A stretch of DNA of 64,000 nt from a bacterium (GTDB taxonomy: Bacteria > Acidobacteriota > Polarisedimenticolia > Polarisedimenticolales > Polarisedimenticolaceae): contig JAAELQ010000008.1 in assembly GCA_024226515.1 (NCBI GenBank), forward strand, positions 62,001 through 126,000, in the 5' to 3' direction. Position 1 is the first letter of the stretch. Each line of letters begins with the position of its first letter. A model generated the notes under the pieces. It had not been told where the DNA came from, searched no databases, and worked only from the letters and a program-made list of their open reading frames with translations. Shown here piece after piece: positions 7,438 through 21,872 of this stretch. Both the position numbers and the translations under genes were made by a program.

Positions 7438-8709
7438 TTGCGCGTAGCGATCGTCGGTAACGGTGTGACGGGCGTCTCGGCGGCGCTGCGTCTGCGAGAG
7501 CTGCAGCCCGACTGGCGTATCTGCCTGATCTCCGGCGAGTCGAAGTACCACTACTCCCGCCCCGCGCTGATGTACCTCTTCATGGGGCACATGAGCTACA
7601 GCGACGTCAAGCCCTACGAAGACGACTTCTGGGAAGCGAAGCGCCTGGAGCTGGTGCGCGACTGGGCGACCGATGTAGACGTCGAGGCCAAGACGCTTGC
7701 TCTGCATCGCGGCGCACCCCTGCAATACGACAAGCTGCTGCTGGCCACCGGATCGAAATCGAACCGTTTCGGCTGGCCCGGCCAGGAGCTGCAGGGCGTC
7801 CAGGGACTGTGGGGCCTGCAGGACCTGCGTCGGCTGTACGACAATGCGCGCGCGACTCGCGAGGCCGTGATCGTCGGCGGTGGACTGATCGGTATCGAGC
7901 TCGCCGAGATGCTGCACTCACGCGGGGTTCACGTCACGTTCCTCGTTCGCGAGAAGTCCTACTGGAACAACATTCTCCCCGGCGACGAGTCGGCGATGCT
8001 CAATCGCCTGATCCGCGCGCACGGCATCGGCCTCCGGCTGAAGACGCAGCTCGCGGAGATCCACGACGACGGCGGCGGTCGCTGCTGCGGCGTGACGACC
8101 GACGGCGGCGAACGCATCGACTGCCAGCTCGTCGGCCTGACGGCAGGCGTGAGTCCCAACGTCGACCTGGTTCGTGACTCCGCGATCGCGACGGGCCGCG
8201 GCGTCCTCGTCGATCGACGGTTTCGCACCGACGCAGGCGAAGTCTACGCCGCGGGCGACTGCGCCGAGATCGTCGACCCCGACGGCGGACGCAACCTGAT
8301 CCAGCAGGTCTGGTATACCGGCAAGAAGCAGGGGGAGGCGGTGGCGCACGAGATGGCCGGCCGAGGCGCGGACTACGAGCCGGGTGTTTGGTTCAACTCG
8401 GCCAAGTTCCTCGATCTCGAGTACCAGGTCTACGGTCGCGTCAACACGGGTGTCCCCGGCGAGGCCAACCTGTACTGGGAGCACGCGAACGAGAACCGCG
8501 CCGTGCGCATCGTGCACGCCGAGGGTCGCGTCATCGGATTCAACGTGATGGGCCTACGTTGGCGCCACGAGGTTTGCGAGCGCTGGATCGCCGAGGGCGC
8601 CTCGCCGGCTCACGTCCTCGATCACCTGCGGCATGCGAACTTCGATCCCGAGCTGTTCCGGCGTTACGAGCGCGAGGCGGTCGGCGCCATGCGCGGGCAG
8701 CTCTCGTGA
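7438..8709 (+). CDS. FAD/NAD(P)-dependent pyridine-nucleotide oxidoreductase
   Basis: A 423-residue flavoprotein of the rubredoxin/ferredoxin-reductase-like group (Pyr_redox_2). FAD-binding GNGVTG sits at residues 7-12 after strand 1, LLLATGSKS closes the first Rossmann domain, a second dinucleotide motif GGGLIGIELAE begins near residue 145 for NAD(P)H, and the FAD-closing VYAAGDCAEI is near residue 277. No redox-active CxxC disulfide is seen, so electrons most likely pass to a separate carrier. The start is TTG at 7438 with GAGGG 8 nt upstream; the open frame has no good earlier start. Its last codon overlaps the GTG of the membrane 4Fe-4S gene (GTGA), indicating translational coupling and a common pathway: NAD(P)H to flavin to membrane iron-sulfur protein. 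Confidence 0.85.
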   Translation: MRVAIVGNGVTGVSAALRLRELQPDWRICLISGESKYHYSRPALMYLFMGHMSYSDVKPYEDDFWEAKRLELVRDWATDVDVEAKTLALHRGAPLQYDKLLLATGSKSNRFGWPGQELQGVQGLWGLQDLRRLYDNARATREAVIVGGGLIGIELAEMLHSRGVHVTFLVREKSYWNNILPGDESAMLNRLIRAHGIGLRLKTQLAEIHDDGGGRCCGVTTDGGERIDCQLVGLTAGVSPNVDLVRDSAIATGRGVLVDRRFRTDAGEVYAAGDCAEIVDPDGGRNLIQQVWYTGKKQGEAVAHEMAGRGADYEPGVWFNSAKFLDLEYQVYGRVNTGVPGEANLYWEHANENRAVRIVHAEGRVIGFNVMGLRWRHEVCERWIAEGASPAHVLDHLRHANFDPELFRRYEREAVGAMRGQLS

Positions 8710-10226
8710 TCGACGCCGACACACTGGCCTACGAGCACGACGAGGAGGCCGCGGGCTTCGGTCGCCCGCCGACGCCGGCGGGGGTGCGTCCGGCGGGGCA
8801 CGGCGCGCTGAACAGGGTCGCCGTCGCGCTGATGGCCGTCGCGCTGCTGTCGCTCGCCGTGCAGGTCTTCTCCGGCACGCTGAACGGGACATGGGCCGGG
8901 TTGCTGTCCGGCCTGGGGCTGCTGTCGTTCGGCGCCGCCCTGTACTTCTGGTCCGGGCTGCGCGGCACCGAGGCCGGGATCAAGCACGACGGGACGCAGT
9001 TCGACGGATTGCGCACTCGCGGCTGGGCCGGCTGGGTCGCCGGTCTGGCGATGACCGCACTGTACGTCCTGCTCTACTTCGATCCGCGCCTGTTGGGCTA
9101 CGTCCCGGCGGTGTGGGGCGCCGGGGGCCTCGTCGAGGAGGCGCGAATCACGGGCGGGCTCGTGCTGACCGTGCAACCGCTGGCGCACGCGCTCGGCGTC
9201 GAGACCTCGCAGTGGTTCCTGTACGGCGTGCTGTACACGTTGGCGATCCTCGTCTTCGGCGTGCGCATGTTCATGAAGTACCGCCACAACCGGTATCAAC
9301 AGATCCGCACCGCGTCGGTCATGTTCTTCCAGTCCGTTTTCGCCTGGTACCTGCCGCAGCTTCTCGTTCGCTTCCAGCAGCCGTACGTCGAGTTCAACGG
9401 TGTGTGGCCGCTGAAGTACGACTACCTGTGGCCCGAGAAGACGCACGGGCAGTTCCTCGGCGCCGGGTTGCCGGGGAAGCTGCTGCTGGCGTTTGCCGTC
9501 GCCGGCGTCGTGGCCACGCCGATCCTGACTTACTTCTACGGCAAGCGCTGGTACTGCTCGTGGGTCTGCGGCTGCGGCGGACTGGCCGAGACGCTGGGCG
9601 ACCCGTGGCGCCAGTTGTCGAGTAAGTCGACCCGCGCGTGGAAGATCGAGCGCTGGTTGATCCACGGCGTGCTGCTCCTCGTCGTCGTGACGACCGCTGC
9701 CCTGTGGCTCGACTATCGCGCGTCGGGCAACCTCTACGGAAGCTGGTCCGGCAAGCTGCGCACGGCCTACGGGCTGTACGTCGGAGCCATCTTCTCCGGC
9801 GTGGTCGGCGTCGGCTTCTATCCGCTGCTGGGCAGCCGCGTCTGGTGCCGCTTCGGGTGTCCGCAGGCGGCGATCCTCGGCATCCTGCAGCGCGTGTTCT
9901 CGCGCTTCCGTATCACGACCAACGGCGGCCAGTGCATGTCGTGCGGCAACTGCTCGACGTACTGCGAGATGGGAATCGACGTTCGCGCGTACGCGCAGCG
10001 CGGCGAGAACATCGTGCGCGCTTCGTGCGTGGGCTGTGGCGTGTGTGCCGCTGTCTGCCCGCGCGGCGTGCTGAAGCTCGAGGCCGGACCGCCGGGCGAC
10101 CGCTACGACGGGGCCGAGCGCCCTGTCGCGGCGCTGGTCGATTCGGTCAAGAGCCCCGAGATCTACGGTTACCGCTCCTGGCAAGGCCCGGCGGGCGACG
10201 TGGCGAAGGACTTGCGGAAAACCTAG
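8706..10226 (+). CDS. Membrane 4Fe-4S ferredoxin-type electron-transfer protein (NapH/RdxA/CcoG-like)
   Basis: A 506-residue polytopic protein. The GTG start overlaps the preceding stop. About eight hydrophobic segments are visible; between them sit two Cys clusters near the membrane face (WYCSWVCGCGG near residue 283 and WCRFGCP near residue 381), typical of the NapH/NosR/CcoG superfamily. A C-terminal dicluster ferredoxin domain follows: CMSCGNCSTYC then CVGCGVCAAVCP, enough ligands for two [4Fe-4S] clusters. Known relatives pass electrons between quinone pools or NAD(P)H reductases and periplasmic or cytochrome-assembly partners. Direct fusion of the reading frames with the flavoprotein gene suggests it accepts electrons from that enzyme. 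The terminal acceptor is unknown; no cytochrome or reductase is encoded next door. Confidence 0.85.
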   Translation: MIDADTLAYEHDEEAAGFGRPPTPAGVRPAGHGALNRVAVALMAVALLSLAVQVFSGTLNGTWAGLLSGLGLLSFGAALYFWSGLRGTEAGIKHDGTQFDGLRTRGWAGWVAGLAMTALYVLLYFDPRLLGYVPAVWGAGGLVEEARITGGLVLTVQPLAHALGVETSQWFLYGVLYTLAILVFGVRMFMKYRHNRYQQIRTASVMFFQSVFAWYLPQLLVRFQQPYVEFNGVWPLKYDYLWPEKTHGQFLGAGLPGKLLLAFAVAGVVATPILTYFYGKRWYCSWVCGCGGLAETLGDPWRQLSSKSTRAWKIERWLIHGVLLLVVVTTAALWLDYRASGNLYGSWSGKLRTAYGLYVGAIFSGVVGVGFYPLLGSRVWCRFGCPQAAILGILQRVFSRFRITTNGGQCMSCGNCSTYCEMGIDVRAYAQRGENIVRASCVGCGVCAAVCPRGVLKLEAGPPGDRYDGAERPVAALVDSVKSPEIYGYRSWQGPAGDVAKDLRKT

Positions 10227-10270
10227 ATTCGGCACAGGATTCCCCTACGTTTCGCACGGGCAAGGAATCG

Positions 10271-11734
10271 ATGGATCTGGGGCTGCAGACGATCGCCGTC
10301 GTGACCGTCGTGGCGGCGTTCGCCGGCGCGGTGGGCTGGTTTCTGCATCGCACCGGGGAGGCCGCGCGGCAGAGCATCATCGAGGCGCACAGCCGCGAGG
10401 AGGTCAACGCGGCCCGCCGTGCGAGAGACCGCGCTCGGGAAGAGACCGAAGAGCTGCGCGAGCGGTTCGAAGCGGCCAAGGGCGAGCACGAAGAGTCCCG
10501 CATGCGCGCCGCCACACTCGAGGCCGCGCTGCGCAAGACGCGGATGTCGATGGATGGTTCGGGCGACGAGCTCGAGCGGCGGCAGGCGCGGGTGGAGCAG
10601 CTCGAGGAGATCCTGCTCGAGCGCACGGCCGAGACGAACCGGTTGCAGGAGGCCCTCACCGCTCGCGACGGCGTCGTCGTCGACGCCGAGCGCCGCGGCA
10701 CCGAATCCGAGAAGCTCGTCGGCGGACTGCGCCGGGAGATCGATCGTCAGAAGGCCGCCATCTCCGAACGCGACGTGAGACTCGACGAGCTGGAGATCAA
10801 GCTGCAGGACCGCGAGGCGACGATCGGATCGCTGAGCGCGGAGCTCGGTAGCCACCAGTCGGGCATTCGCAACGTCAAGCGGGAGAAGGAACTGACCGTC
10901 TCCAAGCTGTCCGGCCTGAAGAAGCGAATGGACGATCGAGCAGCCGAGCTGTCGCGGCTGCGTTCGACGAAGATCGAGCTCGAGACCCTGCTGCGCGAGA
11001 AGGACTCGACGATCACGACGTTGCGCTCCAGCGTGGATCGCCAGCAGATCGAGGAACAGAAAGCCGCCGAGCGTCTCGCGTCGAGTCGCGAGGAGACGCA
11101 GGCCGCTCGCGACGGGCTGGCGCGCGCCGAGTCGAGGATCGAACAACTGAAGTCCGATCTCGAGCTGGCGCGGCAGGCACACGAAGACGAAGCGCATCGC
11201 GCGCGCGAGCTGGACAAGCGCCTGAAGGACATCGAGCGTCTCGTCGCCAGCGGGCAGGAGCAGGTGCGGGCGATGAAGTCCCTGCGCGGCGAGCTGAAGC
11301 AGGTCGAGGCGGCCGCCGAAGCGTTGCGCACCCAGCTCGTGGCTCGCGGCGAGGAGGTTGAGGACCTCGAGAGCCGGCTCGGCGACGCGCGCGCGGCGCA
11401 CGAGCGGTCGGCGGAGACGGTCCGAGATCTCGCGGCGCAGGTCGAGGCCCTGACCGGGACCGTCGCGGAGCGCGACGAGGAGCTGGCCGCGCTCTCTCCC
11501 GACTGGTTGCTCGATCGGTCCGACGGCGAGCCGGACGACCTGAAGACGCTCGCCGGCGTCGGCCCCGTGCTCGAGGAGCGGTTGAACGCGCTGGGGATCT
11601 TCCACTTCCTTCAGCTCGCGCAGGCCAGGGCCGTCGACCTCGACTGGATCGCGGCGCGCATCAACCAGTCTTCGGCCCAAGTTCGACGGCACCGCTGGCC
11701 GGCCCAGGCCAAGTCCCGCGCGCGCAAGCGCTGA
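10271..11734 (+). CDS. Membrane-anchored coiled-coil protein with C-terminal helix-hairpin-helix domain
   Basis: A 487-residue protein. One N-terminal membrane segment (about 6-25, IAVVTVVAAFAGAVGWFLH) is followed by about 390 residues of charged heptad-like coiled coil rich in E, R, L and A. The end (DDLKTLAGVGPVLEERLNAL, about residues 420-440) is a helix-hairpin-helix of the type seen at the ends of L21- or NADH-dehydrogenase-linked fusion proteins, and the last residues (RWPAQAKSRARKR) are strongly basic. Such HhH domains usually bind DNA or mediate protein contact. AAGGAATCG precedes the ATG at 10271. It follows the 4Fe-4S gene by 44 nt and may be in the same operon, although the function looks structural, not redox. 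A DNA-tethering or scaffold role is speculative. Confidence 0.7.
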   Translation: MDLGLQTIAVVTVVAAFAGAVGWFLHRTGEAARQSIIEAHSREEVNAARRARDRAREETEELRERFEAAKGEHEESRMRAATLEAALRKTRMSMDGSGDELERRQARVEQLEEILLERTAETNRLQEALTARDGVVVDAERRGTESEKLVGGLRREIDRQKAAISERDVRLDELEIKLQDREATIGSLSAELGSHQSGIRNVKREKELTVSKLSGLKKRMDDRAAELSRLRSTKIELETLLREKDSTITTLRSSVDRQQIEEQKAAERLASSREETQAARDGLARAESRIEQLKSDLELARQAHEDEAHRARELDKRLKDIERLVASGQEQVRAMKSLRGELKQVEAAAEALRTQLVARGEEVEDLESRLGDARAAHERSAETVRDLAAQVEALTGTVAERDEELAALSPDWLLDRSDGEPDDLKTLAGVGPVLEERLNALGIFHFLQLAQARAVDLDWIAARINQSSAQVRRHRWPAQAKSRARKR

Positions 11735-11784
11735 TTCCCGTTTCGTAACTGCGCGGCGTTTCGCCCGCGAATTGATCTCGCGTG

Positions 11785-11845
11785 GGAACCAAACACCCGC
11801 GGCGGGGTCATACTCGTTGAAACCTTGGCGCCGCTCGCTGGTATG
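11785..11845 (+). promoter_or_regulatory. Possible ECF-type (autoregulatory) promoter of the sigma factor gene
   Basis: GGAAC at 11785-11789 is followed after 17 nt by GTCA (11807-11810), a spacing and sequence like ECF promoters. A second candidate -35, TGAAACC at 11818-11824, lies 16 nt before GTAT (11841-11844). Either would let the sigma factor transcribe its own operon, as many ECF groups do. The assignment rests on short motifs only. Confidence 0.3.
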
Positions 11846-11876
11846 GGCGGTTATGTACGAGGCGCAGGCAACCGAC

Positions 11877-12470
11877 ATGAGCGAATCCACCGCCCCGCAG
11901 TCGACCGCATCTTCGGAACGCGATTTGTTGTTGCGTTTCCGCGAAGGCGACCGCGAGGCGTTCGCGGAGCTGGTCGCGGCATATCGGGCTCCGGTCTGGT
12001 CCTACCTCGTCCGCTGCAACATCCCCGCGGCCGATCGCGAGGATCTGTTTCAGGACATCTTCATCCGCGTGCACCGCGCGGCGGGCCAGTACGAGCCCAG
12101 CAGGCCGCTGCACCCGTGGCTGTTCACCATCGTCGCCAACGTCGTGCGCACGTTCCATCGCAAGCGCAAGCTGCGCGGCATTCTGTTTGCCGACGCCGCG
12201 GACGTGGAACGGGCCGACCGTGCGCCGAGTGGCGAACGAAGCGCCAGCGCGCGCCAGACGGTGGACTGGCTCGAGCACGAGATCCGCGACCTGCCTCCGG
12301 CGCAACGCGAGGTGCTGTTGCTGGCCGGCGTGCAGAACGTGCCGCAGAAGGACGTCGCCGGCGCACTCGGTCTTCCGTTGAACACGGTCAAGACCCATCT
12401 GCGCCGCGCCCGCCTGACCCTCGCCGAGAAACTGCGCCGAAGAAATCGAGCGCAAGGTGTGAAACCATGA
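11877..12470 (+). CDS. ECF RNA polymerase sigma factor
   Basis: A 197-residue sigma-70-family protein of ECF size. Region 2 spans RDLLLRFREGDREAFAELV through DLFQDIFIRVHRAAGQY, with the DxxQDxF signature and HPWLFTIVANVVR. Region 4 spans LPPAQREVLLLAGVQNVPQK through LGLPLNTVKTHLRRAR, the helix-turn-helix that reads the -35. An in-frame ATG at 11853 would add eight residues; 11877 was chosen because the extra residues fit no family feature. The stop codon overlaps the ATG of the anti-sigma gene (ATGA at 12467-12470), so the two are translated in a coupled way, the usual arrangement for a sigma and its cognate inhibitor. Released, it should direct transcription of an envelope-related regulon. 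Confidence 0.92.
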   Translation: MSESTAPQSTASSERDLLLRFREGDREAFAELVAAYRAPVWSYLVRCNIPAADREDLFQDIFIRVHRAAGQYEPSRPLHPWLFTIVANVVRTFHRKRKLRGILFADAADVERADRAPSGERSASARQTVDWLEHEIRDLPPAQREVLLLAGVQNVPQKDVAGALGLPLNTVKTHLRRARLTLAEKLRRRNRAQGVKP

Positions 12471-15409
12471 ACGACACTTGCAAGAAGTTGAGAGACAAGC
12501 TGGCGGCCGACGGACCGCAGGCGATTCGCGACTGCCTCGACAGCCAGCAGCACGTGCTGGAGTGCTCCGATTGCTTCGAGTTCCTCGAGGCGCTGTCGGA
12601 GATCGAGGGCGCGTTGCCGGAGCTGCCGCCGCACGACGCACCGGACGCTGTGGTCGACGCGTTGCTGGCACGGCCCGAGCTGCTCGACGAGCCCGCGACG
12701 CTTCCGCCGCGCCCGGGCATCGGCACCTGGCTCTTCCGTGTGCCGCGCCCGCTGGCGCTCGGCGCGCTCGGCGCGCTGGCCATCACCGTCACGTTGTTCG
12801 TCACGTTGCGCTCGCCGGCCGACCGCACTCCGTTCGGAATCGACGAGTGGCCGGTCGCCGCATCGGGCTCCGACAACGCACCGCTGGACGAGGTCGCGCG
12901 GCTGGACGACGATACGGCCGAGGCGTTGAAGTCGCTCGGCTACACGGGTGAGCCGAAGGAACGGCCTGTCGGCAAGGACAAGCGCAAGGCGGGCGATCGT
13001 TCGAACCGGGTGCCGCCTCCGCCGGCGTCGGAGTCGAGGAAGCCGGAGCCGAGGAAGTCGGAGCAACGCCTCGAGGTCGAGGCGGACCAGGCGGAGGCCG
13101 AAACGCTTGCACGCTCGGCGCGAGAGATCTACGAAGAGCAGAAGAAGCGCGACGAGTGGATGCGCAGGCAGCTCGCGAACGAGCAGCCGAGCGCGGCCGC
13201 AGGGAGCGGCGGGATCCAGGTCCAGGTCGTCGAGGATAACGGCCCGCTGCCCGGAGCGACCGTCACGATCGGTCACGCGACCGGCTACGTCAGGACGACG
13301 GCCGCGCTGACCAACGCGCGCGGCGTCGTCGACTTCCCTGTCCTGCGCCCGGGGCGGGGTTACGACATCCAGGTCCAGTTTCCGGGCTACGGCATGCGTC
13401 GCGTACCGGACATCCGGGTCCAGCAGGGCCGGACCACGCCGATCACGATTCAACTGGCCGACGAGCTGCGGGGGAAGGTCGTGGTCGTGGCCGAGGGTGA
13501 CGTCGTCGACCTCGACGGCACGCAATCGGCGACCAAGTTCAGCGACGAGTATATCCAGGATCTCCCCACGCCGGGACGCTTCTATCAGAACGTGCTGACC
13601 CTCGCACCGGGCGTACAAGATGCGGAGGGAGAACAGGTCGCGACGGCCCACGGATCGCGCTCGCGCGACTTCAAGGCCGAGGTCGGCGGTGTCGGCAACG
13701 TGGACGCGCCGACAGGTGAGTTCATGAGCCGTGTCAATCCGAACTCCATCGACGAGATGGAGGTCGTCACGGGCGGCAAGGGCGTCGAGTTCAGCCGCGC
13801 GCAGGGCGGATTCGCCTCGATCGTCGGATCGCCCGCGGAGCGCTTCCTCGCCGAACGCGCCCGCGTCGAGGATCTGGAGTTCGTTTCCGCCACGGGCTAC
13901 TGGTCCAACACCTACGTGCCGGGCGACCCCGAGCTGCGGCTGCTGCAGTCGCGCCTGACCGGTTTCGACCCGGCCGTGTTCGCGTCGTCCTCCGGATCGT
14001 CGCCGAGTCTGCACCGGGCGATCCGTCGCGCGGCGCAGCCGTTCGACGCCCCGCGCAACGCCGCGCTCGACGTGTTCCTGCACGCCGACCGCACGGGCAT
14101 CACCGAGCGTGGACGTATCCTGTTGCAGGTCGGGCTGCAGGCCGCCGAGGGTCACGGTCGCCGCCGCCCGGCGATGAACCTCGGTCTCGTCGTCGACCTC
14201 CGCGCTCCGCAGTCCGATCGCGCCGCGGCCGCGGCACGCTCCGTCGTCGAGGCGACGATCCGTGCCATCGAGCCCGGCGATCGGATCGGACTGACGGTCG
14301 TCGGGCCGTCGTCGGTCGCGTACGTTCCCCCGGGCGACTTCCGCCACGGCACCGCGAAGATCGCGCTCGACACGGCGCTCGCGGAATCGGCCGGCGACAT
14401 CGGCGCGCAGCACCTGGCCGACGCCGTCTCGACGGCCGTGCGCCACGTCTCGGCCGCGGACGATTCGACGGCGACGCTCGGATCCAGCGCGGTGATTCTC
14501 GTCGCCGGCGGAGCGCTCGGCGACGTCGATCGGCTGGCCGACATCGCGCACACGGGCGCCGTCGCGGGCGTCATCACCAGTGTCATCGCGGCGGGTGACG
14601 GGGCGGACCCGGACTCGCTCGAACGCCTGGCCCTCGCGGGGCAGGGGAATCGACGAATCCTGACCTCGCCGGCCGAGGCGTCGAGCGTCGTCGAGCGCGA
14701 GCTCGCCGCCGTGGGCCGCGTCGTGGCCCGTGCGGTCCGGCTGCGGATTCGCCTGGCGCCCGGCGTCGAGTTGGTCGACATCCCCGGCGCTTCGTCGCTC
14801 GACGAGGTGCGCGCCGAGCGCGTGCGTGAGGCGGAGGTCAGCATCGATCGGCGACTGTCGCGCAACCTGGGGATCCAGGCCGACCGCGGCGAGGACGAGG
14901 AGGGGATCCAGATCGTGATCCCGAGCTTCTACGCCGGCGACTCGCACGTGATCCTGCTCGACGTCGTCGCGCCGGGGCCCGGTCCCGTGGCCGACGTCAC
15001 GGTGCGTTACAAGGACCTGGCTCACCTGAAGAACGGCGTCGCACGCGACAGCCTCGGCCTGGCCGATGAGTCGCGGGCCGCCGGGCCGCTCGAACGCAAC
15101 GTGCTGCTCAACCTGCTCGCGCTCGATCTCGCGCAGGCCCTCGAGGACGCGGGCAGTGCCGCCGCGGCCGGACGCGCGGACGCCGCGTTGACGCGCCTCG
15201 CCGAGTTCTCCGAGCTGCTGCGCGAACTGCGCGCGCAGGTCCCGGACCTGGCACAGAACGTCGAGCTGGCCGCGGACATCGCCCTGCTCGACGACTACCG
15301 CTCGGTGCTGAGCAGCGAGGCCGCCTCGCGGCCGGAGCTGCTGGCGCTGCTGTCCGATTCCCTGCGCTACGCGGGGCGACTGAAACTCCAACGACCCTAC
15401 ACGAACTGA
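12467..15409 (+). CDS. Transmembrane anti-sigma factor fused to CarboxypepD_reg-, TonB-plug- and VWA-like domains
   Basis: A 980-residue fusion. (1) Residues 1-60: zinc anti-sigma domain with H29-x3-C33-x2-C36 and an extra C23. (2) A single membrane segment about 96-116 (LALGALGALAITVTLFVTL). (3) A charged, Pro-rich stretch with LKSLGYTGE near 155 and a coiled region to about 245. (4) About 248-331: beta-sandwich of the carboxypeptidase-regulatory type (GATVTIGHATGYVRTTAAL ... FPGYGMRRV). (5) About 354-455: sequence like the plug of Oar/TonB-dependent receptors (FSDEYIQDLPTPGRFYQNVL, then NSIDEMEVVTGGKGVEFSRA). (6) About 569-775: VWA-like fold whose MIDAS DxSxS is degraded to DLRAPQS, followed by a C-terminal helical and beta region. 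No beta-barrel is present. The cytoplasmic end should bind the sigma factor and the periplasmic part should sense a ligand or partner. It is 18 nt ahead of the 1023-residue exported protein gene. The order of domains is clear; the plug assignment is by motif resemblance. Confidence 0.75.
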   Translation: MNDTCKKLRDKLAADGPQAIRDCLDSQQHVLECSDCFEFLEALSEIEGALPELPPHDAPDAVVDALLARPELLDEPATLPPRPGIGTWLFRVPRPLALGALGALAITVTLFVTLRSPADRTPFGIDEWPVAASGSDNAPLDEVARLDDDTAEALKSLGYTGEPKERPVGKDKRKAGDRSNRVPPPPASESRKPEPRKSEQRLEVEADQAEAETLARSAREIYEEQKKRDEWMRRQLANEQPSAAAGSGGIQVQVVEDNGPLPGATVTIGHATGYVRTTAALTNARGVVDFPVLRPGRGYDIQVQFPGYGMRRVPDIRVQQGRTTPITIQLADELRGKVVVVAEGDVVDLDGTQSATKFSDEYIQDLPTPGRFYQNVLTLAPGVQDAEGEQVATAHGSRSRDFKAEVGGVGNVDAPTGEFMSRVNPNSIDEMEVVTGGKGVEFSRAQGGFASIVGSPAERFLAERARVEDLEFVSATGYWSNTYVPGDPELRLLQSRLTGFDPAVFASSSGSSPSLHRAIRRAAQPFDAPRNAALDVFLHADRTGITERGRILLQVGLQAAEGHGRRRPAMNLGLVVDLRAPQSDRAAAAARSVVEATIRAIEPGDRIGLTVVGPSSVAYVPPGDFRHGTAKIALDTALAESAGDIGAQHLADAVSTAVRHVSAADDSTATLGSSAVILVAGGALGDVDRLADIAHTGAVAGVITSVIAAGDGADPDSLERLALAGQGNRRILTSPAEASSVVERELAAVGRVVARAVRLRIRLAPGVELVDIPGASSLDEVRAERVREAEVSIDRRLSRNLGIQADRGEDEEGIQIVIPSFYAGDSHVILLDVVAPGPGPVADVTVRYKDLAHLKNGVARDSLGLADESRAAGPLERNVLLNLLALDLAQALEDAGSAAAAGRADAALTRLAEFSELLRELRAQVPDLAQNVELAADIALLDDYRSVLSSEAASRPELLALLSDSLRYAGRLKLQRPYTN

Positions 15410-15427
15410 TTCACCTCGGAGCCCCTC

Positions 15428-18400
15428 ATGAACATCCATCGCAACCTCGTCACGACGTTGATCGCATTCCTCCTCGTCCTCGCCGGCCTCCCGTCGGCGG
15501 CCGAGGAAGATCCCGCGCAGGTTCGACTGCCACTCGACGTTTACACCGAGCTGGTGCGTCAGGGTGACCTCGCGCTCGAACGACCCGTGCCCGCCGGCTT
15601 CGCGCTGGGTAGCGCCGACGTCGAGGCGATCGTCGCCGACGTCGAGCCGCTGAGTGCACAGGTCAACGTGCGCCTGACGATCGACGTCCTCGAGCGGGAC
15701 GCCTGGGTGCTGGTCCCCGTGCTCCCGCCCGGCACGCCGATCGAGAGCGTTACCGTGGACGGCAAGCCGGCCCAGCTCGTCGCCGGAGCGAACGGCCTGG
15801 CCTGGGTCACGAACAGCACGGGCACGCACGCGATGGTCATTCGCTACAAGATCGACGCCCAGCGCTCCGAGGGCGGTTACATGTTGACGCTGCCGGTGCC
15901 GGAGGCGTCCGCGCTGAATCTCGTTGCGTCGTTGCCGGGCGCCGGACTCGACGTGTCCGTGATTCCATCGGCCGGCCTGCAGACGCAGCCCCAGGCCGAG
16001 AGCACGCGCGTGTCGGCGACCATCCCGACGACACGCGGCGTCCAGCTGTTCTGGCAGGGCGAGCGCTGGGAAGGGCACTCGATCGGACGCGCCGACTACA
16101 GCGGAGAGCTGGTCGGCGACGCCGTGCTGTGGAAGGGCCGGCTGGCGGTCGAGCTGTTCAGCGATCGCGCGATCCTGCTGCCGATCCTCCCGGGAAGCGT
16201 GACGCTGAGCGAGCTCGCCGTCGACGGCGAGCCCGCGACGATCCTCGTCGAGGGCAACCGCTTCGCCACCCGCATCGCCGGGCGCGGAGCGCACGAGGTC
16301 GAGGTCGAGTTCCAGGTGCCCGTGTCGCGCGGCGACGGCCCGCCCAGCGTGGACCTGCACGTTCCGCGGATTCCCGTGTCGCGTTTCGAGCTGCGCCTGC
16401 CGGGGCAAAAAGAGCTGTCGGTTCGGCCCCGCGCCAACGTGGACAGCACGAGTGACGAGAACGAGACGGTGGCCCGCGTCCACGTGCCGATGACCGAACG
16501 CGTGACGTTCACCTGGTCCGAGGCGGTTCCGGACGAGGTCGCCGAGGAGGTGCGGGCCAACGCCACGGTGTACCACGCGGCCCATGTCGACGAGAACGTG
16601 CTCTACGTCCACGCGCTGGTGCACTACGACGTGCGTCGCGGCGAGACCAGCGTGATCGAGCTGCAGCTGCCGCCCGAGGTCCAGATCAACCGCATCGGCG
16701 ACGATTCCGGCATCGTCTCCGACTGGCGCGAGCTGCCGGCCCCCAAGGGTGGGCCGCGCACCGTCAACGTCTTCCTCGATCGCGAGCTGCAAGGCGAGTT
16801 GCTGTTCGAGGTGCTGTACGATCGTTCGATGCCGTCCGAGGCCGAGGCCTCGCTCGGCGTGCCGATGGTCCGCACGCCCGCCGCCCAGCGCAGACGGGGC
16901 ATGGTCGCGTTGCTGTCGAGCCCCGAGCTGACGCTCGACCCCGTCGAGGACGCGGACGCGACCCGGGTGGGGGAGAACCGGCTGCCCCCGTTCGTCCGCG
17001 AACGGATCGAGCTGACCGTTGCCCACACCTACAAGTACACCGATCATCCGCCCGCGCTGCTCGTCGCCTCGAAGGTGCCCGAACGCGTGCAGGGTCGCTT
17101 CGACACCCGCGTCGACTCGCTCGTGTCGCTCGGTGACGTGGCGCTCGAGGGTTCGACCAGCGTTCAGATCAACGTCAAGTCCGGCAGCATCACCGATCTC
17201 GTGCTCTCGTTGCCGGACGGGATCAACCTGTTGAACCTCACCGCGCCGTCGTTGCGCGGGTACGACGTGACCGACGAGACCCCGACGAGGCAGGTCGAGA
17301 TCGAGTTCACGCAGGAGATGCAGGGACGCTTCCGCGTCGACCTGTCCTACGAACGGATTCTGGTCGAGGGCGAGTCTCCGGTGGGCGTGCCCACGATTGC
17401 AGTTCTCGGTTCCGAGGTCGAGCAGGGCCGGATCGCCGTCGAGGCGCTGAGCGCCGCCGAAATCCAGCCGGCCGTTGAGAAGCAGCTCACCGCGCTCGAC
17501 GTGGACGAGCTGCCGCGCCAGCTCGTGTTGCAGACGACGAATCCGATCCTGCTGGCGTACAAGTACGTCCGCTCGGAGGCGCCGCCCGAGCTGGCGCTGC
17601 GCGTCACGCGGCACCGCGTTCTCGGCGTCCAGGAGGCCGCGATCGACAGCGCCACGTACCGCACGCTGTTCACGGCGGACGGGCTGCAGGTCACGACGGC
17701 ACACTTCCTCGTGCGCAACAGCCGCAAGCAGTTCCTGCGTGTTCGTCTGCCCGAAAACTCCGAAGTGTGGTCGGCCTTCGTCGACGGCACTCCGGAGAAC
17801 CCGGCCGCCGCGGGCAGCGAAGGCGAGGACGAACGCAGCGTGCTGATCAAGATCATCAACTCCGCCGAGCCGTTTCCGGTCGAGCTGGTCTACGCGACCC
17901 GCGGCACGCGTGTCGGTCTCATGGGGGCGATCGAGGGCATCCTGCCGCGTCCCGACATCCTCGTCACCGAGACCCACTGGGACGTCTACCTGCCGGATCG
18001 CGTCAGCTACTCCGGTCCGCGCACGAATCTCGAGTCCGCGAGCGAGGGAGTCCGCGTCGCGGCGCAGACGATGGAGCAGCAGTTCGCCGGGCTGGGAAAG
18101 AGCAGCGACGTCGATCAGGTGACGAAGTCGTTGCGCGTGATCGTCCCCGCGTCGGGCATGCACTTCGCGTTCACGAAGATCTACGCCAACCAGGCCGACC
18201 AGGACTCCTGGCTCAGCCTGCGCTACGTGTCCAGCGGCGGGACGGCGACGGCACGCGCGATGAGCGTGCTGGGCGCAGCGCTGTTCTGGCTCGGCGCCGG
18301 CATCTGGCTGCAGACGCGACGTCGAGTGCCCGCCGCAGCCTTTGGCGTTGCCGGACTGGGCATCGTCGCGCTGGCGCTGCGGCTACACCCGATCGGTGTC

Positions 18401-18499
18401 GGGCCGCTGCTCGTCACCTCGCTCGTCGCCCTGGTCGTCCTCGCTGCCGTGCGGATGCGAGCGGCGCACGCCCCGCTGGATGCGGGACACTCGGCCTGA
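15428..18499 (+). CDS. Large exported membrane-anchored protein, partner of the anti-sigma fusion
   Basis: A 1023-residue protein of no named family. Signal peptide 1-25 (IAFLLVLAGLPSAAEE). The long exported part is built of beta-rich units; a V-D-G-x-P motif recurs at D111 (VTVDGKPAQL), D266 (LAVDGEPATI) and D786 (AFVDGTPENP), each followed by a similar stretch ending G-x-H-x-V/M-x-I or equivalent, which suggests duplicated beta-sandwich repeats. Three membrane segments close the protein (about 943-960, 965-985 and 990-1008), so it is anchored at the C-terminus with the bulk in the periplasm. CGGAG stands 9 nt before the ATG. Lying 18 nt after the anti-sigma gene, it is almost certainly in the same operon and may be the sensed ligand, an adaptor or the effector. 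Function otherwise unknown. Confidence 0.7.
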   Translation: MNIHRNLVTTLIAFLLVLAGLPSAAEEDPAQVRLPLDVYTELVRQGDLALERPVPAGFALGSADVEAIVADVEPLSAQVNVRLTIDVLERDAWVLVPVLPPGTPIESVTVDGKPAQLVAGANGLAWVTNSTGTHAMVIRYKIDAQRSEGGYMLTLPVPEASALNLVASLPGAGLDVSVIPSAGLQTQPQAESTRVSATIPTTRGVQLFWQGERWEGHSIGRADYSGELVGDAVLWKGRLAVELFSDRAILLPILPGSVTLSELAVDGEPATILVEGNRFATRIAGRGAHEVEVEFQVPVSRGDGPPSVDLHVPRIPVSRFELRLPGQKELSVRPRANVDSTSDENETVARVHVPMTERVTFTWSEAVPDEVAEEVRANATVYHAAHVDENVLYVHALVHYDVRRGETSVIELQLPPEVQINRIGDDSGIVSDWRELPAPKGGPRTVNVFLDRELQGELLFEVLYDRSMPSEAEASLGVPMVRTPAAQRRRGMVALLSSPELTLDPVEDADATRVGENRLPPFVRERIELTVAHTYKYTDHPPALLVASKVPERVQGRFDTRVDSLVSLGDVALEGSTSVQINVKSGSITDLVLSLPDGINLLNLTAPSLRGYDVTDETPTRQVEIEFTQEMQGRFRVDLSYERILVEGESPVGVPTIAVLGSEVEQGRIAVEALSAAEIQPAVEKQLTALDVDELPRQLVLQTTNPILLAYKYVRSEAPPELALRVTRHRVLGVQEAAIDSATYRTLFTADGLQVTTAHFLVRNSRKQFLRVRLPENSEVWSAFVDGTPENPAAAGSEGEDERSVLIKIINSAEPFPVELVYATRGTRVGLMGAIEGILPRPDILVTETHWDVYLPDRVSYSGPRTNLESASEGVRVAAQTMEQQFAGLGKSSDVDQVTKSLRVIVPASGMHFAFTKIYANQADQDSWLSLRYVSSGGTATARAMSVLGAALFWLGAGIWLQTRRRVPAAAFGVAGLGIVALALRLHPIGVGPLLVTSLVALVVLAAVRMRAAHAPLDAGHSA

Positions 18500-18506
18500 T
18501 GCCGTT

Positions 18507-18537
18507 GCGAGCGGTCGTCAGCGCGACGGCCGCTCGC
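18507..18537 (+). terminator. Hairpin closing the sigma/anti-sigma operon
   Basis: A 13-bp stem with one wobble pair (18507-18519 with 18525-18537; GCGAGCGGTCGTC and GACGGCCGCTCGC) and a 5-nt loop begins 7 nt after the operon's last stop. It overlaps the end of the convergent M28 gene, including that gene's stop codon. No clear U-tract. Confidence 0.45.
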
Positions 18538-20620
18538 CCAGCTCCAGCGGCAGCGAGATGCGATCGTCGTCGCGGATCAGCGCGACGTCGACCGTCTCTC
18601 CGGCGCCGATCTGCATCAGCCGCGAGCGTAGGCTGTTCGTGCCGACGGGCCGACCCTCGATGGAGATCATGATGTCGCCCTCGAGCAGGCCGGCCGCCTC
18701 GGCCGGTCCCCCGGCGACGACGCGCAACAGCACGATCCCCTGCCCCTCGTTCAGTCCGTGCGCCGTGCGCTGATCGTCGTCGACGGCGCCGGGGAATACG
18801 CCGAGGTAGCCCGTCCGGGCACGTTCGACCTCGACGCGCAGCTCGTCTCCGTCGCGCGAGACGGAGAGCGCGACGAGCGGCCCCGGGTCGATCTCGCGAA
18901 ACCGAGGACCGACGTCGTCGGGGTGCTCGAGGGCCTCGTCGTCGAAGGCCAGCAGCACGTCGCCCGCGAGGAGGCCGGCCTGCTCGGCGCGCGAGGCTTC
19001 CTCGACCCCGGTGATCCGCGCGGCAGGGGGCGCGGCCGCGTCATCAACCTCGACGCGGATCCCGAGCCACGTGACGTTGTGAACGAACGTCGGGGCTCGG
19101 TCGGCATTCGCCACGCGATCGATCACACCGTGGGCCAGCCTGGCGATCGACTGCATCCGAGAGAAGTCGAGCTTCTCCGGGTGGTCGCCTAGCTGATGGT
19201 AGTCCTCGTGCGTTCCGGTGAAGAAGAACGTGAACGGGACATCGCTATCGAAGAACGCGTCGTGGTCGCTGTTGCCCGCGTAGCCGCTGCCGTTGAACTG
19301 CAGCGGGATTCCGAGCGGCTCGTTCGCCGCGTCGACGATCTCGCGCAGCTCGCGGACGTATCCGTCGCCGTAGACCTCGACCGCGCGCTCGGGGTTGCGC
19401 CCGATCATGTCCAGATTGAGCATGAAGACGATCTGCTCGACGGGCACCAGGGCCTGCTCGACCAGCGCGCGAGAGCCGAGCAAGCCCCGCTCTTCCGCGC
19501 TGAACGTGACGAACAGGATGCTGCGACGAGGTCTCTCGCCGGCGCTCGCGAACGCGCGAGCCAGCTCCAGTACGGCCGACACGCCGGACGCGTTGTCGTC
19601 GGCGCCGTTGAACACCGTATCGCCCTCGCCGGGGAACCCACCCACGTGGTCGTGGTGCCCGCCGACGACGAGCCATTCGTGCGTCAGCGCCGGGTCGGAT
19701 CCGGCCACGAAACCGGCCACGTTGCGCGCCCGCACCGTCTCGGATCCTTCCAGCGTGCGTACTGCGAGGCGGACCGTGACCGGTTCCCAGTCGATCGACC
19801 CGGGAGCCGTGCCGTCGTCGACGCGGCGCTGCAACTCGTCGAGACCGACGCCGGAGGGGCGAGCCAGGAGGTCCGCCAGCGCGCGATCGACCTGCAACGC
19901 CAGGAACGGACTCTCGACGGTTTCCTCGTCCTCGGCGGGCTCCGGCGGGTCGAGCCGCAGGCTGCCGCGCACGCGAAGATCCTCCGCTTCCTCGTGGTGT
20001 AGCGGGTCCGTGACCAGGATCATGCCGAGCGCACCGTTTTCCGCCGCTCGCTCCGCCTTGGCCGTGAACAGCGCGTGCCGGCTGCTCGATGTGCCGTCGA
20101 ACGCGCTGTCGGGGTCGTTCTCGCCGGGTTCGTGGCGCAGCACGAGGACGATCTTGCCCTCGACGTCCAGCCCCGCGAAGTCGTCGTAGTCGTGCTCGTC
20201 CGCGGTGATGCCGTAGCCGGCGAAGACGACCTGCGCCTCGACCCGTCCCTCGTCGGAGAAGTCGAACGGCCGGAAGTCCGAACCCAGCTCGGCCCGGTGC
20301 TCGACGCCGTCCGCGGTGATCGCGAGCGACGTACCGGCGGCGTCGTACGCCGAGCGGTGCAGCTCGAAATCGATGAAGTGATCGTCGCATCCAGGTGGGG
20401 GGGACAGCCCGGCATCGCCGAAGAACGCCGCGATGTACTCCTCGGCCTCGCCGATCCCGGACTCGCCCGTGTCGCGCCCGAGCAATGCGTCGTCGGCAAG
20501 GAACTCCACGTGGCGGCGCATTCGATCCTCGGTGATGCTCTGGAGCCCGCGCGACGTGTCGCAGGCCCACGTCGAGAGCGCGACGAGAGCGATGAGCAGC
20601 GTGATCGTGCGGCGTTCCAA
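18518..20620 (-). CDS. Exported M28-family zinc peptidase with PA domain and two PDZ domains
   Basis: A 700-residue protein beginning with TTG. Signal sequence LLIALVALSTWAC at 9-21 has a Cys at the end but an imperfect lipobox (TWAC), so lipid attachment is possible, not certain. A protease-associated segment (VVFAGYGITADEHDYDDFAG) precedes the M28 catalytic core: GGHHDHVG (near residue 320), GADDNASGV, EERGLLGS, LNLDMIGR and DYHQLGD supply the two-zinc ligands and the general base Glu. Two PDZ domains follow (about 515-600 and 610-690), each with a G-L/V-x-x-G-D core (AGLLAGDVLL, AGLLEGDIMI). Family members are aminopeptidases or carboxypeptidase-like; PDZ fusion suggests binding of C-termini. 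It is convergent with the sigma operon and divergent from the REC-GGDEF gene. A hairpin abuts its start codon (20621-20640). Confidence 0.9.
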   Translation of the reverse strand: MERRTITLLIALVALSTWACDTSRGLQSITEDRMRRHVEFLADDALLGRDTGESGIGEAEEYIAAFFGDAGLSPPPGCDDHFIDFELHRSAYDAAGTSLAITADGVEHRAELGSDFRPFDFSDEGRVEAQVVFAGYGITADEHDYDDFAGLDVEGKIVLVLRHEPGENDPDSAFDGTSSSRHALFTAKAERAAENGALGMILVTDPLHHEEAEDLRVRGSLRLDPPEPAEDEETVESPFLALQVDRALADLLARPSGVGLDELQRRVDDGTAPGSIDWEPVTVRLAVRTLEGSETVRARNVAGFVAGSDPALTHEWLVVGGHHDHVGGFPGEGDTVFNGADDNASGVSAVLELARAFASAGERPRRSILFVTFSAEERGLLGSRALVEQALVPVEQIVFMLNLDMIGRNPERAVEVYGDGYVRELREIVDAANEPLGIPLQFNGSGYAGNSDHDAFFDSDVPFTFFFTGTHEDYHQLGDHPEKLDFSRMQSIARLAHGVIDRVANADRAPTFVHNVTWLGIRVEVDDAAAPPAARITGVEEASRAEQAGLLAGDVLLAFDDEALEHPDDVGPRFREIDPGPLVALSVSRDGDELRVEVERARTGYLGVFPGAVDDDQRTAHGLNEGQGIVLLRVVAGGPAEAAGLLEGDIMISIEGRPVGTNSLRSRLMQIGAGETVDVALIRDDDRISLPLELGERPSR

Positions 20621-20852: not shown

Positions 20853-21872
20853 ATGTTTGATCCGAACCGCATCCTCGTGGTCGAGTCCGAGGACGACCTG
20901 CGCCAGGTCCTGAACGACGTGTTGAGCGACGCGGGATACGACGTCCTGACCGCGCGCGACGGCGAGCACGCGATCGACGTGTTCCGCATCAACCCGTGCG
21001 CGATCGTGCTCACCGACATGGTCATGGGTGAGATGTCCGGTCTCGACGTGCTACACAAGATCCAGAAGATGAGCCCCGAGACCGAGACGATCATGATGAC
21101 CTGCCACGCGTCGATGGAGTCGGCGATCGAGTCCCTGCGCGGTGGAGCCTACGACTTCCTGATCAAGCCCTTCGACGACCTGACGATCGTCGCCAGTACG
21201 GTCGCCCGCGCGCTGGACAAACAGCAGCTGCAGGGTAAGAACAAGGCGTTGATGACGCAGCTCAGGGGCTACGCGAGGGACCTCGAGGAAGTCAACGAGC
21301 AGCTCAAGGCCGTCGTCAGCCTCGACGGCCTGACCGACCTGTACAACCACAAGTTCTTCCGCGAAGCGCTGGAGAAGGAGTTGGCGCGCTCGGCCCGACA
21401 CAGCCGCGAGTTCTCGCTGGTGTTTCTCGACATCGACCACTTCAAGCAGTACAACGACCGCAACGGTCACCTCTGCGGCGACGAGCTGCTCAAGCAACTG
21501 GCGCTGTTGATCCAGAAACTCTCTCGACGCTCCGAGGTCGTGGCACGCTACGGCGGCGAGGAGTTCGTCCTGATCCTGCCCGAGACGAACAAGTCGGGCG
21601 CCTTCGTGCACGCAGAGAGGTTGCGTGAGAGCGTCATGGACTATCCGTTCGACGGCCGCGAGACCCAACCGCTCGGCCGCGTCACGATGAGCCTCGGCGT
21701 TTCGAGCTACCCGGAAGACGGGGGCGACGCCGACACGCTGATCGACCGCGCGGACAAGGCGCTGTACGTCGCGAAGCGCCAGGGGCGCAACCGCGTCAGC
21801 CTGGCGGGTCTCGAGGAGCTCGACATCGGGCTGTTCCCCGAAGACGAACCGGTCATCGAACCCCACACCTGA
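20853..21872 (+). CDS. Response regulator with REC and GGDEF (diguanylate cyclase) domains
   Basis: A 339-residue cytoplasmic protein. The N-terminal receiver (about 5-120) has the acidic pair (E12/D14-D15 region), phospho-acceptor D55 in IVLTDMVMG, and the switch Lys in LIKPFDD. A coiled linker (about 125-160) leads to a GGDEF domain with the start motif DGLTDLYNHKFF, metal-binding FLDIDHFKQYND and catalytic RYGGEEF. The product should be cyclic-di-GMP. The inhibitory site expected five residues before GGEEF reads R-x-x-E instead of R-x-x-D, so product inhibition may be weak. No partner histidine kinase lies next to it. No clear Shine-Dalgarno precedes the ATG. Confidence 0.93.
   Translation: MFDPNRILVVESEDDLRQVLNDVLSDAGYDVLTARDGEHAIDVFRINPCAIVLTDMVMGEMSGLDVLHKIQKMSPETETIMMTCHASMESAIESLRGGAYDFLIKPFDDLTIVASTVARALDKQQLQGKNKALMTQLRGYARDLEEVNEQLKAVVSLDGLTDLYNHKFFREALEKELARSARHSREFSLVFLDIDHFKQYNDRNGHLCGDELLKQLALLIQKLSRRSEVVARYGGEEFVLILPETNKSGAFVHAERLRESVMDYPFDGRETQPLGRVTMSLGVSSYPEDGGDADTLIDRADKALYVAKRQGRNRVSLAGLEELDIGLFPEDEPVIEPHT

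Follow-up and report, generated by a model that had tools for sequence, protein, structure and literature searches.

Why should an anti-sigma factor carry a piece of an outer-membrane transporter? The question is raised by a 64,000-nucleotide stretch of DNA (the window; contig JAAELQ010000008.1 of assembly GCA_024226515.1) from a member of the Polarisedimenticolaceae, in which the gene for a 980-residue protein, P0001, is placed directly 3' of an extracytoplasmic function (ECF) sigma factor gene, as in class I zinc anti-sigma factors. An initial annotation had read in this frame a zinc anti-sigma domain (H29/C33/C36), a predicted membrane helix, a CarboxypepD_reg domain, a stretch like the plug of TonB-dependent transporters, and a VWA-like half without an intact metal ion-dependent adhesion site (MIDAS), and we confirmed each of these elements. 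The further proposal, that a plug module had been transplanted onto the anti-sigma factor, held up in part: transporters encoded in the genome of P0001 have the module too, and a wider family shows that it was captured repeatedly, but structure prediction does not support a folded plug domain.

Origin of the plug-bearing module

As judged from alignments, a plug-bearing module is common to P0001 and to TonB-dependent transporters of its own genome, which we take to be of the Oar type. Residues 243–454 are 72% identical to transporter L002, over a region covering the N-terminus, TonB box and plug of L002; the match begins at what reads as the mature N-terminus of the transporter and stops at its plug/barrel border. 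L002 is matched by models for CarboxypepD_reg, Plug and the outer-membrane barrel. In P0001 no barrel follows the plug, as had been noted at the outset, and the VWA half comes next. The same module matches three further loci of the genome (L004–L006) at 45–50% identity, with barrel models in both of those scanned (L004 and L006), and a YfbK-like VWA protein (L003) at 63%. The latter protein (P0071, G000:C115:414003-414557) contains vWF_A, VWA and YfbK_C and has an N-terminal CarboxypepD_reg followed by an incomplete plug. A database protein of the VIT-VWA kind (P0046), in which a CarboxypepD_reg and, by reading, a TonB-box/plug stretch lie near the C-terminus, is a third kind of VWA protein with the module.

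P0001 belongs to a family. A database protein search yielded 21 members, the query counted (P0001 and P0004–P0023), and a scan of species genomes with the VWA half yielded 49 loci, mainly in Acidobacteriota, Myxococcota/Deltaproteobacteria and Gammaproteobacteria, with few others; the named strains are Marinicella sediminis and M. meishanensis (L054, L056). Among genomes of the same class, 2 of the 41 sampled match, one being our own and the other a weak 30% VWA match, and 7 of 396 match in the phylum sample when both of these are counted. Across the 49 loci, phmmer detected the sigma gene in 34 and a gene resembling that of P0003, the protein encoded downstream of P0001, in 42. P0001 is one member of a conserved trio of sigma factor, anti-sigma/VWA protein and scaffold, and its initial description as a self-contained sensor was too narrow, also in view of the scarcity of plugs considered below.

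Because the plug copies of this family do not have one origin, the sequences support repeated capture. Forcing a single origin on ten well-preserved family plugs costs 78 log-likelihood units and is rejected by the approximately unbiased test (p 0.0005), computed on a quick tree with long branches that used 10 of the 18 plug rows together with 34 transporters picked as nearest to them. In a quick tree of the plug stretches, the nearest row is a transporter or the YfbK-like protein for 15 of 18 family members' stretches (for that of P0001 it is L002), and the best match by raw identity lies in this set for 12 of them. The stretch of P0006 is 83% identical to the barrel-bearing transporter P0059 over 208 amino acids, compared with 66% over 109 amino acids for its nearest family member. 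The copy in L052 has a sharp beginning, at the TonB box, and extends to about the end of the plug; over 110 amino acids it shares 81% identity with a frame of the L052 genome that also has a barrel, and the sequence before the box is unrelated.

The initial annotation had also expected a plug fold, which AlphaFold2 (AF2) did not reproduce. With an alignment of 45 rows, in 16 of which the module came from a transporter or from the YfbK-like protein, the plug was modelled with a predicted local distance difference test score (pLDDT) mostly below 50, and residues 341–450 were left disordered, with block means of 30–57. Because AF2 does not fold it, the plug stretch of P0001 is probably a flexible arm. 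To the original version, in which a folded plug module senses a ligand or protein partner, we give scarcely any credence: it can appeal to the sequence identity with real plugs, but must contend with the disorder in the model and with the deletions that copies elsewhere in the family tolerate.

Substitution rates indicate that the copy in P0001 is constrained, although more loosely than in the transporter. This follows from branch ratios obtained by the Nei–Gojobori method (NG86), as YN00 gave no usable values in nine of ten comparisons. In a three-way estimate over 185 codons, the branch to the P0001 copy had 0.163 nonsynonymous (dN) and 0.55 synonymous (dS) substitutions per site, a ratio of 0.30 (bootstrap about 0.16–0.48) to which some evolution predating the capture may contribute, while the branch to L002 had a dN of 0.024 and a dS of 0.508.

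These values bear on an alternative, namely that the linker is a tolerant spacer into which abundant transporter genes recombine without function, the pieces then decaying. The partial deletions, AF2 disorder and fast evolution of the plug copies fit this hitch-hiking, as does the presence of the module in other VWA proteins (P0071/L003 and P0046). Hitch-hiking accounts less well for a dN/dS below 1 on the P0001 branch, even if some of the change on it may be older than the capture, or for the convergence of different Ton parts (TonB box, plug, TonB_C) and of GspC/GltG parts on one slot. Nor does it account for where the matches begin: of 66 linkers, 18 have a match in a set of 94 transporters (with a median length of 1062 and the plug end at 231), and no match starts past transporter residue 300, although two that start before it run on to 310 and 351. 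The transporters in this comparison and in the trees were mostly fetched with P0001, so that other transporter types are under-sampled. On balance, we consider hitch-hiking quite unlikely.

The linker slot and TonB

The family linker between membrane helix and VWA half is long, mostly of low complexity and barely alignable, and its cargo differs from member to member. A local profile detected TonB_C in 13 of 66 non-redundant members, with matches above the Pfam cut-off in P0004, L024, L025, L033, L035 and L047. PEGA is present in L055, P0022 and P0023. The C-terminal PDZ part of GspC_delta is recognisable in P0021 (E 3e-35) and in L047 (E 3e-38), in both cases below the cut-off for the full-length model. 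L047 has, in addition, an AgmX/PglI tail that passes its cut-off (E 4e-28) and a match to the end of GltG (E 2e-42). The linker of this protein (L047:2599-6795, from a Deltaproteobacteria metagenome-assembled genome) thus unites an AgmX/PglI (GltG-like) TonB tail with a GspC-like PDZ. On a VWA-half tree of 62 members, TonB_C requires four changes, the plug five, boxes four and any Ton part 11, the box label having been set by hand for eight members (seven of them in the tree).

Nine members (P0004, P0007, P0009–P0012, P0014, P0018 and P0019) have TonB_C beside a plug remnant, an arrangement that would suit a clamp in cis, in which TonB_C holds the neighbouring box until transporters with exposed boxes compete it open. 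We regard such a clamp as very improbable: TonB_C was found in P0001 neither by Pfam nor by the local profile, and most TonB_C-bearing members have, by eye, lost the box.

In several Gammaproteobacteria, linkers without a recognised plug contain a TonB-box motif resembling those of transporters encoded in their own or a sister genome; L056, for instance, has GTITVTGSRIKRS, and transporter L080 from M. sediminis has GKITVTGSRIKRSDVEGA. We scored 64 of the 66 linkers (leaving out L029 and L059; L053 fell out at an earlier regular-expression step) with a position-specific scoring matrix built from 29 boxes of 30 transporters, L087, in which no box was seen, having been dropped; its six source genomes were chosen after motifs had been noticed in their linkers. 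At 16 bits or more, five linkers were positive, compared with means of 0.035 for column-permuted matrices and 0.01 for shuffled linkers (maximum 1 in each case); at 10 bits or more, there were nine, compared with 1.24 and 1.1. Shuffling each linker separately left six of 64 at p ≤ 0.005 (0.32 expected; one among reversed linkers). A looser regular expression matched 15 of 66 linkers, one of them in the truncated locus L059, where the stretch is not linker, against a shuffle mean of 4.6 (maximum 11) and five reversed linkers. Because the boxes of the closely related pairs L045/L046, L054/L056 and L037/L038 sit at non-homologous places, they were probably gained separately, with positions taken from alignments of fast-changing linkers and, for the L046 box, from reading.

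Of the 35 loci in which a sigma gene was found, 13 have a Ton part, compared with none of the 10 others (p 0.02, post hoc; L029, L059 and L071 skipped). This confinement to sigma-bearing loci fits signalling better than mere anchoring. Among 29 other zinc-finger proteins of the same genomes, 21 of which pass the zf-HC2 cut-off, none has a Ton part (box of at least 10 bits, TonB_C or plug); these were retained from 48 zinc-finger loci, two family members having been removed beforehand and the others being duplicates or lacking a motif-bearing frame at the locus centre.

The same observations can be set against the view that the slot is an anchor rather than a trigger, the VWA half and P0003 scaffold sensing the state of the envelope and the Ton, GspC and GltG parts merely parking the sensor by outer-membrane machines. 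The VWA half and P0003 are indeed the constant parts while the docking parts vary, and, since no sigma gene was found in ten countable loci, the VWA/P0003 pair may stand alone in some of them. The restriction of Ton parts to sigma-bearing loci suggests a signalling role instead, and we judge the anchor unlikely, though to be reckoned with.

Because TonB boxes and TonB_C are also present in plug-less relatives, it is plausible that TonB reads P0001. The explanation that we tentatively favour, at somewhat less than an even chance, is that release of the ECF sigma factor is gated by the TonB motor, which would bind the periplasmic arm of P0001 and pull on it. For TonB, the plug arm would act as a flexible bait, its near end fixed in the inner membrane and its far end presumably held by the VWA half and P0003 scaffold. 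When pulled, the disordered linker would extend and become accessible to a first protease; the sigma factor would then be freed much as it is from FecR- or RseA-type regulators, which undergo regulated intramembrane proteolysis. The reverse sign, protection by TonB, could also hold; we prefer release. What the cell would then read is how much energised TonB is not engaged with transporters, or whether the motor runs at all.

Precedents for single steps come from the literature. Force spectroscopy showed the TonB–BtuB bond to be strong enough for a channel to be pulled open in the transporter (PMC5413942), FecR-type regulators are freed by Prc and RseP proteolysis (PMC9249621), and a transporter signalling domain can shield FoxR from proteolysis (PMC11637429).

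Several observations weigh against TonB reading. Plug stretches were found in 18 of 21 database members (with CarboxypepD_reg in P0001, P0005 and P0006), a count inflated by fetching these members with a plug-containing query, and in only one of the 49 VWA-half loci (L052), whose plug is of another type than that of P0001. Many family copies are eroded by deletions, and the plug of P0001 evolves faster than its transporter cousin (branch 0.50 compared with 0.073). By raw identity, the best match of six of the 18 plug stretches is another family member, so that some may be co-inherited. The scoring matrix, built from six other genomes, passes over the box-like stretch of P0001, the best window of this linker lying elsewhere (p 0.067). 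Finally, no Ton part was recognised in 32 of the 62 members, and TonB reading therefore cannot be the common trigger of the family.

A broader proposal is that the linker is a swappable docking slot, repeatedly filled with parts copied from trans-envelope machines of the cell itself (TonB boxes, plugs, TonB C-terminal domains, the type II secretion GspC PDZ and a gliding-motor tail), so that gene expression would directly report the load on these machines. We regard this as possible, if on the unlikely side. The parts would be integrated decoys, by analogy with the decoy domains of plant immune receptors, and, if true, this would be a bacterial case in which parts of a monitored machine are copied as decoys into a signalling protein.

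In Gram-negative cells, TonB is shared among many transporters, and we counted 12–49 Plug matches per genome in six genomes. No sensor that gauges how much TonB is free and working is known to us; if our favoured explanation is correct, an anti-sigma factor presenting itself to TonB would fill that role. The two named Marinicella strains (L054, L056), with public genomes, make the idea testable.

Domains of P0001 and its locus

The three genes are tightly packed on the forward strand (Table 1).

Table 1. Features of the locus, in window coordinates.
Feature	Position	Strand	Basis or remark
Promoter-like ECF site GGGAACC-N15-GGTCATA	11784..11812	+	5' of sigma gene, read from sequence
ECF sigma factor	11877..12470	+	ATG 11877 or 11853; frame opens 11772, stop 12470
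Anti-sigma/VWA protein P0001, 980 aa	12467..15409	+	Start overlaps sigma stop (ATGA)
Cytoplasmic anti-sigma domain	12467..12691	+	H29-x3-C33-x2-C36 at 12551-12574
Predicted membrane helix, residues ~96-114	12752..12808	+	Hydropathy 2.25 over 19 residues
Periplasmic linker, residues 115-455, variable slot of family	12809..13831	+	Family comparison
CarboxypepD_reg, residues 250-330	13214..13456	+	Pfam E 5e-11; pLDDT block means 88-97 over 251-330
TonB-box-like stretch near KVVVVAEG, residues ~333-346	13463..13504	+	Alignment with transporter L002; core-regex match
Plug-derived stretch, residues 350-455	13514..13831	+	Ends at transporter plug/barrel border
VWA-like half, residues 456-980, family-defining	13832..15406	+	DLRAP in place of MIDAS
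Third gene, P0003, 1023 aa	15428..18499	+	Signal-peptide-like start, tandem beta domains, C-terminal predicted membrane helices

The sigma protein matches Sigma70_r2 (E 1.6e-13) and Sigma70_r4_2 (E 1.9e-13) in Pfam and TIGR02937 (E 5e-24) in NCBIfam. The anti-sigma domain of P0001 is helical in the AF2 model (pLDDT block means 90–96 over residues 1–50), and H-x3-C-x2-C is found in 50 of 66 non-redundant members. zf-HC2 gave no row for P0001 at E ≤ 1 in the Pfam scan, nor any at its place in a scan of its own genome to E 0.5, and NF052375 antisigma matches in relatives are weak, every one lying below cut-off. The membrane helix, predicted from hydropathy, does not form in the AF2 model, and by reading it contains no SHLS motif. 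The VWA-like half has the Rossmann-like fold; DxSxS occurs in one of 41 members with a credible strand. The Pfam scan of P0001 gave a clear match for CarboxypepD_reg and weak ones for VWA and Plug, with none for FecR, STN or YfbK_C; the NCBIfam scan gave nothing useful. A sequence search of the PDB returned only weak matches to ATP-citrate synthase (best E 0.046), and Foldseek matches of P0003 to integrin alpha and oligosaccharyltransferase (TM-score ≤ 0.31) were rejected as a guide to function.

The promoter-like site suggests possible autoregulation of the sigma gene. ECF-like sites of the form AACC...CGT are visible 5' of many family sigma genes, but a predefined score is statistically weak: 4 of 35 upstream regions reached at least 9 of 10, compared with 2.1 expected from shuffling, and we make no claim of a shared promoter.

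Upstream of the trio (7438-11734, +) lie genes for a pyridine nucleotide-disulphide oxidoreductase and a 4Fe-4S ferredoxin-type protein and, by reading, a coiled-coil frame. An M28 peptidase with PA and two PDZ stretches is convergent to the trio (18518-20620, −), followed by a response regulator receiver joined to a GGDEF domain (20853-21872, +). Clustering found no neighbour beyond the trio recurring in more than three of the 49 loci, and no transporter or tolQ/tolR-like gene recurs. In L048 (14792-15670) and L055 (11432-13435), the trio is followed by another VWA half, complete or partial. In four distant VWA relatives (L068–L071), the zinc-finger motif was not found and, by reading, the proteins are lipoprotein- or membrane-anchored; a P0003-like gene lies upstream of the VWA gene in L068 and L069.

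Comparison with known systems

The initial annotation knew of no described system with the architecture of P0001, and our literature search on anti-sigma factors with a VWA, plug, TonB box or TonB_C, which covered few subscription journals, likewise found no account of it. FecR/FoxR-type cell-surface signalling shares with P0001 the ECF sigma factor, membrane anti-sigma factor, link to TonB-dependent transport and regulator proteolysis (PMC9249621, PMC11637429). There, however, box and plug reside in a separate outer-membrane receptor whose signalling domain touches the anti-sigma factor, whereas P0001 carries box and plug sequence itself, with no signalling domain found and no receptor gene recurring nearby. 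VreA of the PUMA3 system of Pseudomonas aeruginosa is barrel-less, has a TolA/TonB-like C-terminal domain and is proposed to feed an anti-sigma factor (PMC2729926); it is, however, a protein of its own, largely soluble and equipped with an STN domain, whereas TonB_C lies inside some anti-sigma factors of our family and the slot of P0001 holds a plug.

The inner-membrane vWA force transducers are similar in having a membrane helix, disordered linker and C-terminal VWA, with a proposed coupling to motors driven by the proton motive force (PMC12204202). They carry an SHLS motor motif or TolR-like helix beside tolQ-like genes; P0001 has an anti-sigma domain and a sigma gene instead, and no further neighbour that recurs.

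YfbK-like VWA proteins share the VWA half, and P0071 of the same genome also shares the CarboxypepD_reg and partial plug, but by reading they have no anti-sigma domain, and their YfbK_C was not detected in P0001. With the Oar-type TonB-dependent transporters, finally, P0001 has in common CarboxypepD_reg, TonB box and plug sequence, and where these transporters have their barrel it has none, being held instead by a predicted inner-membrane anchor.

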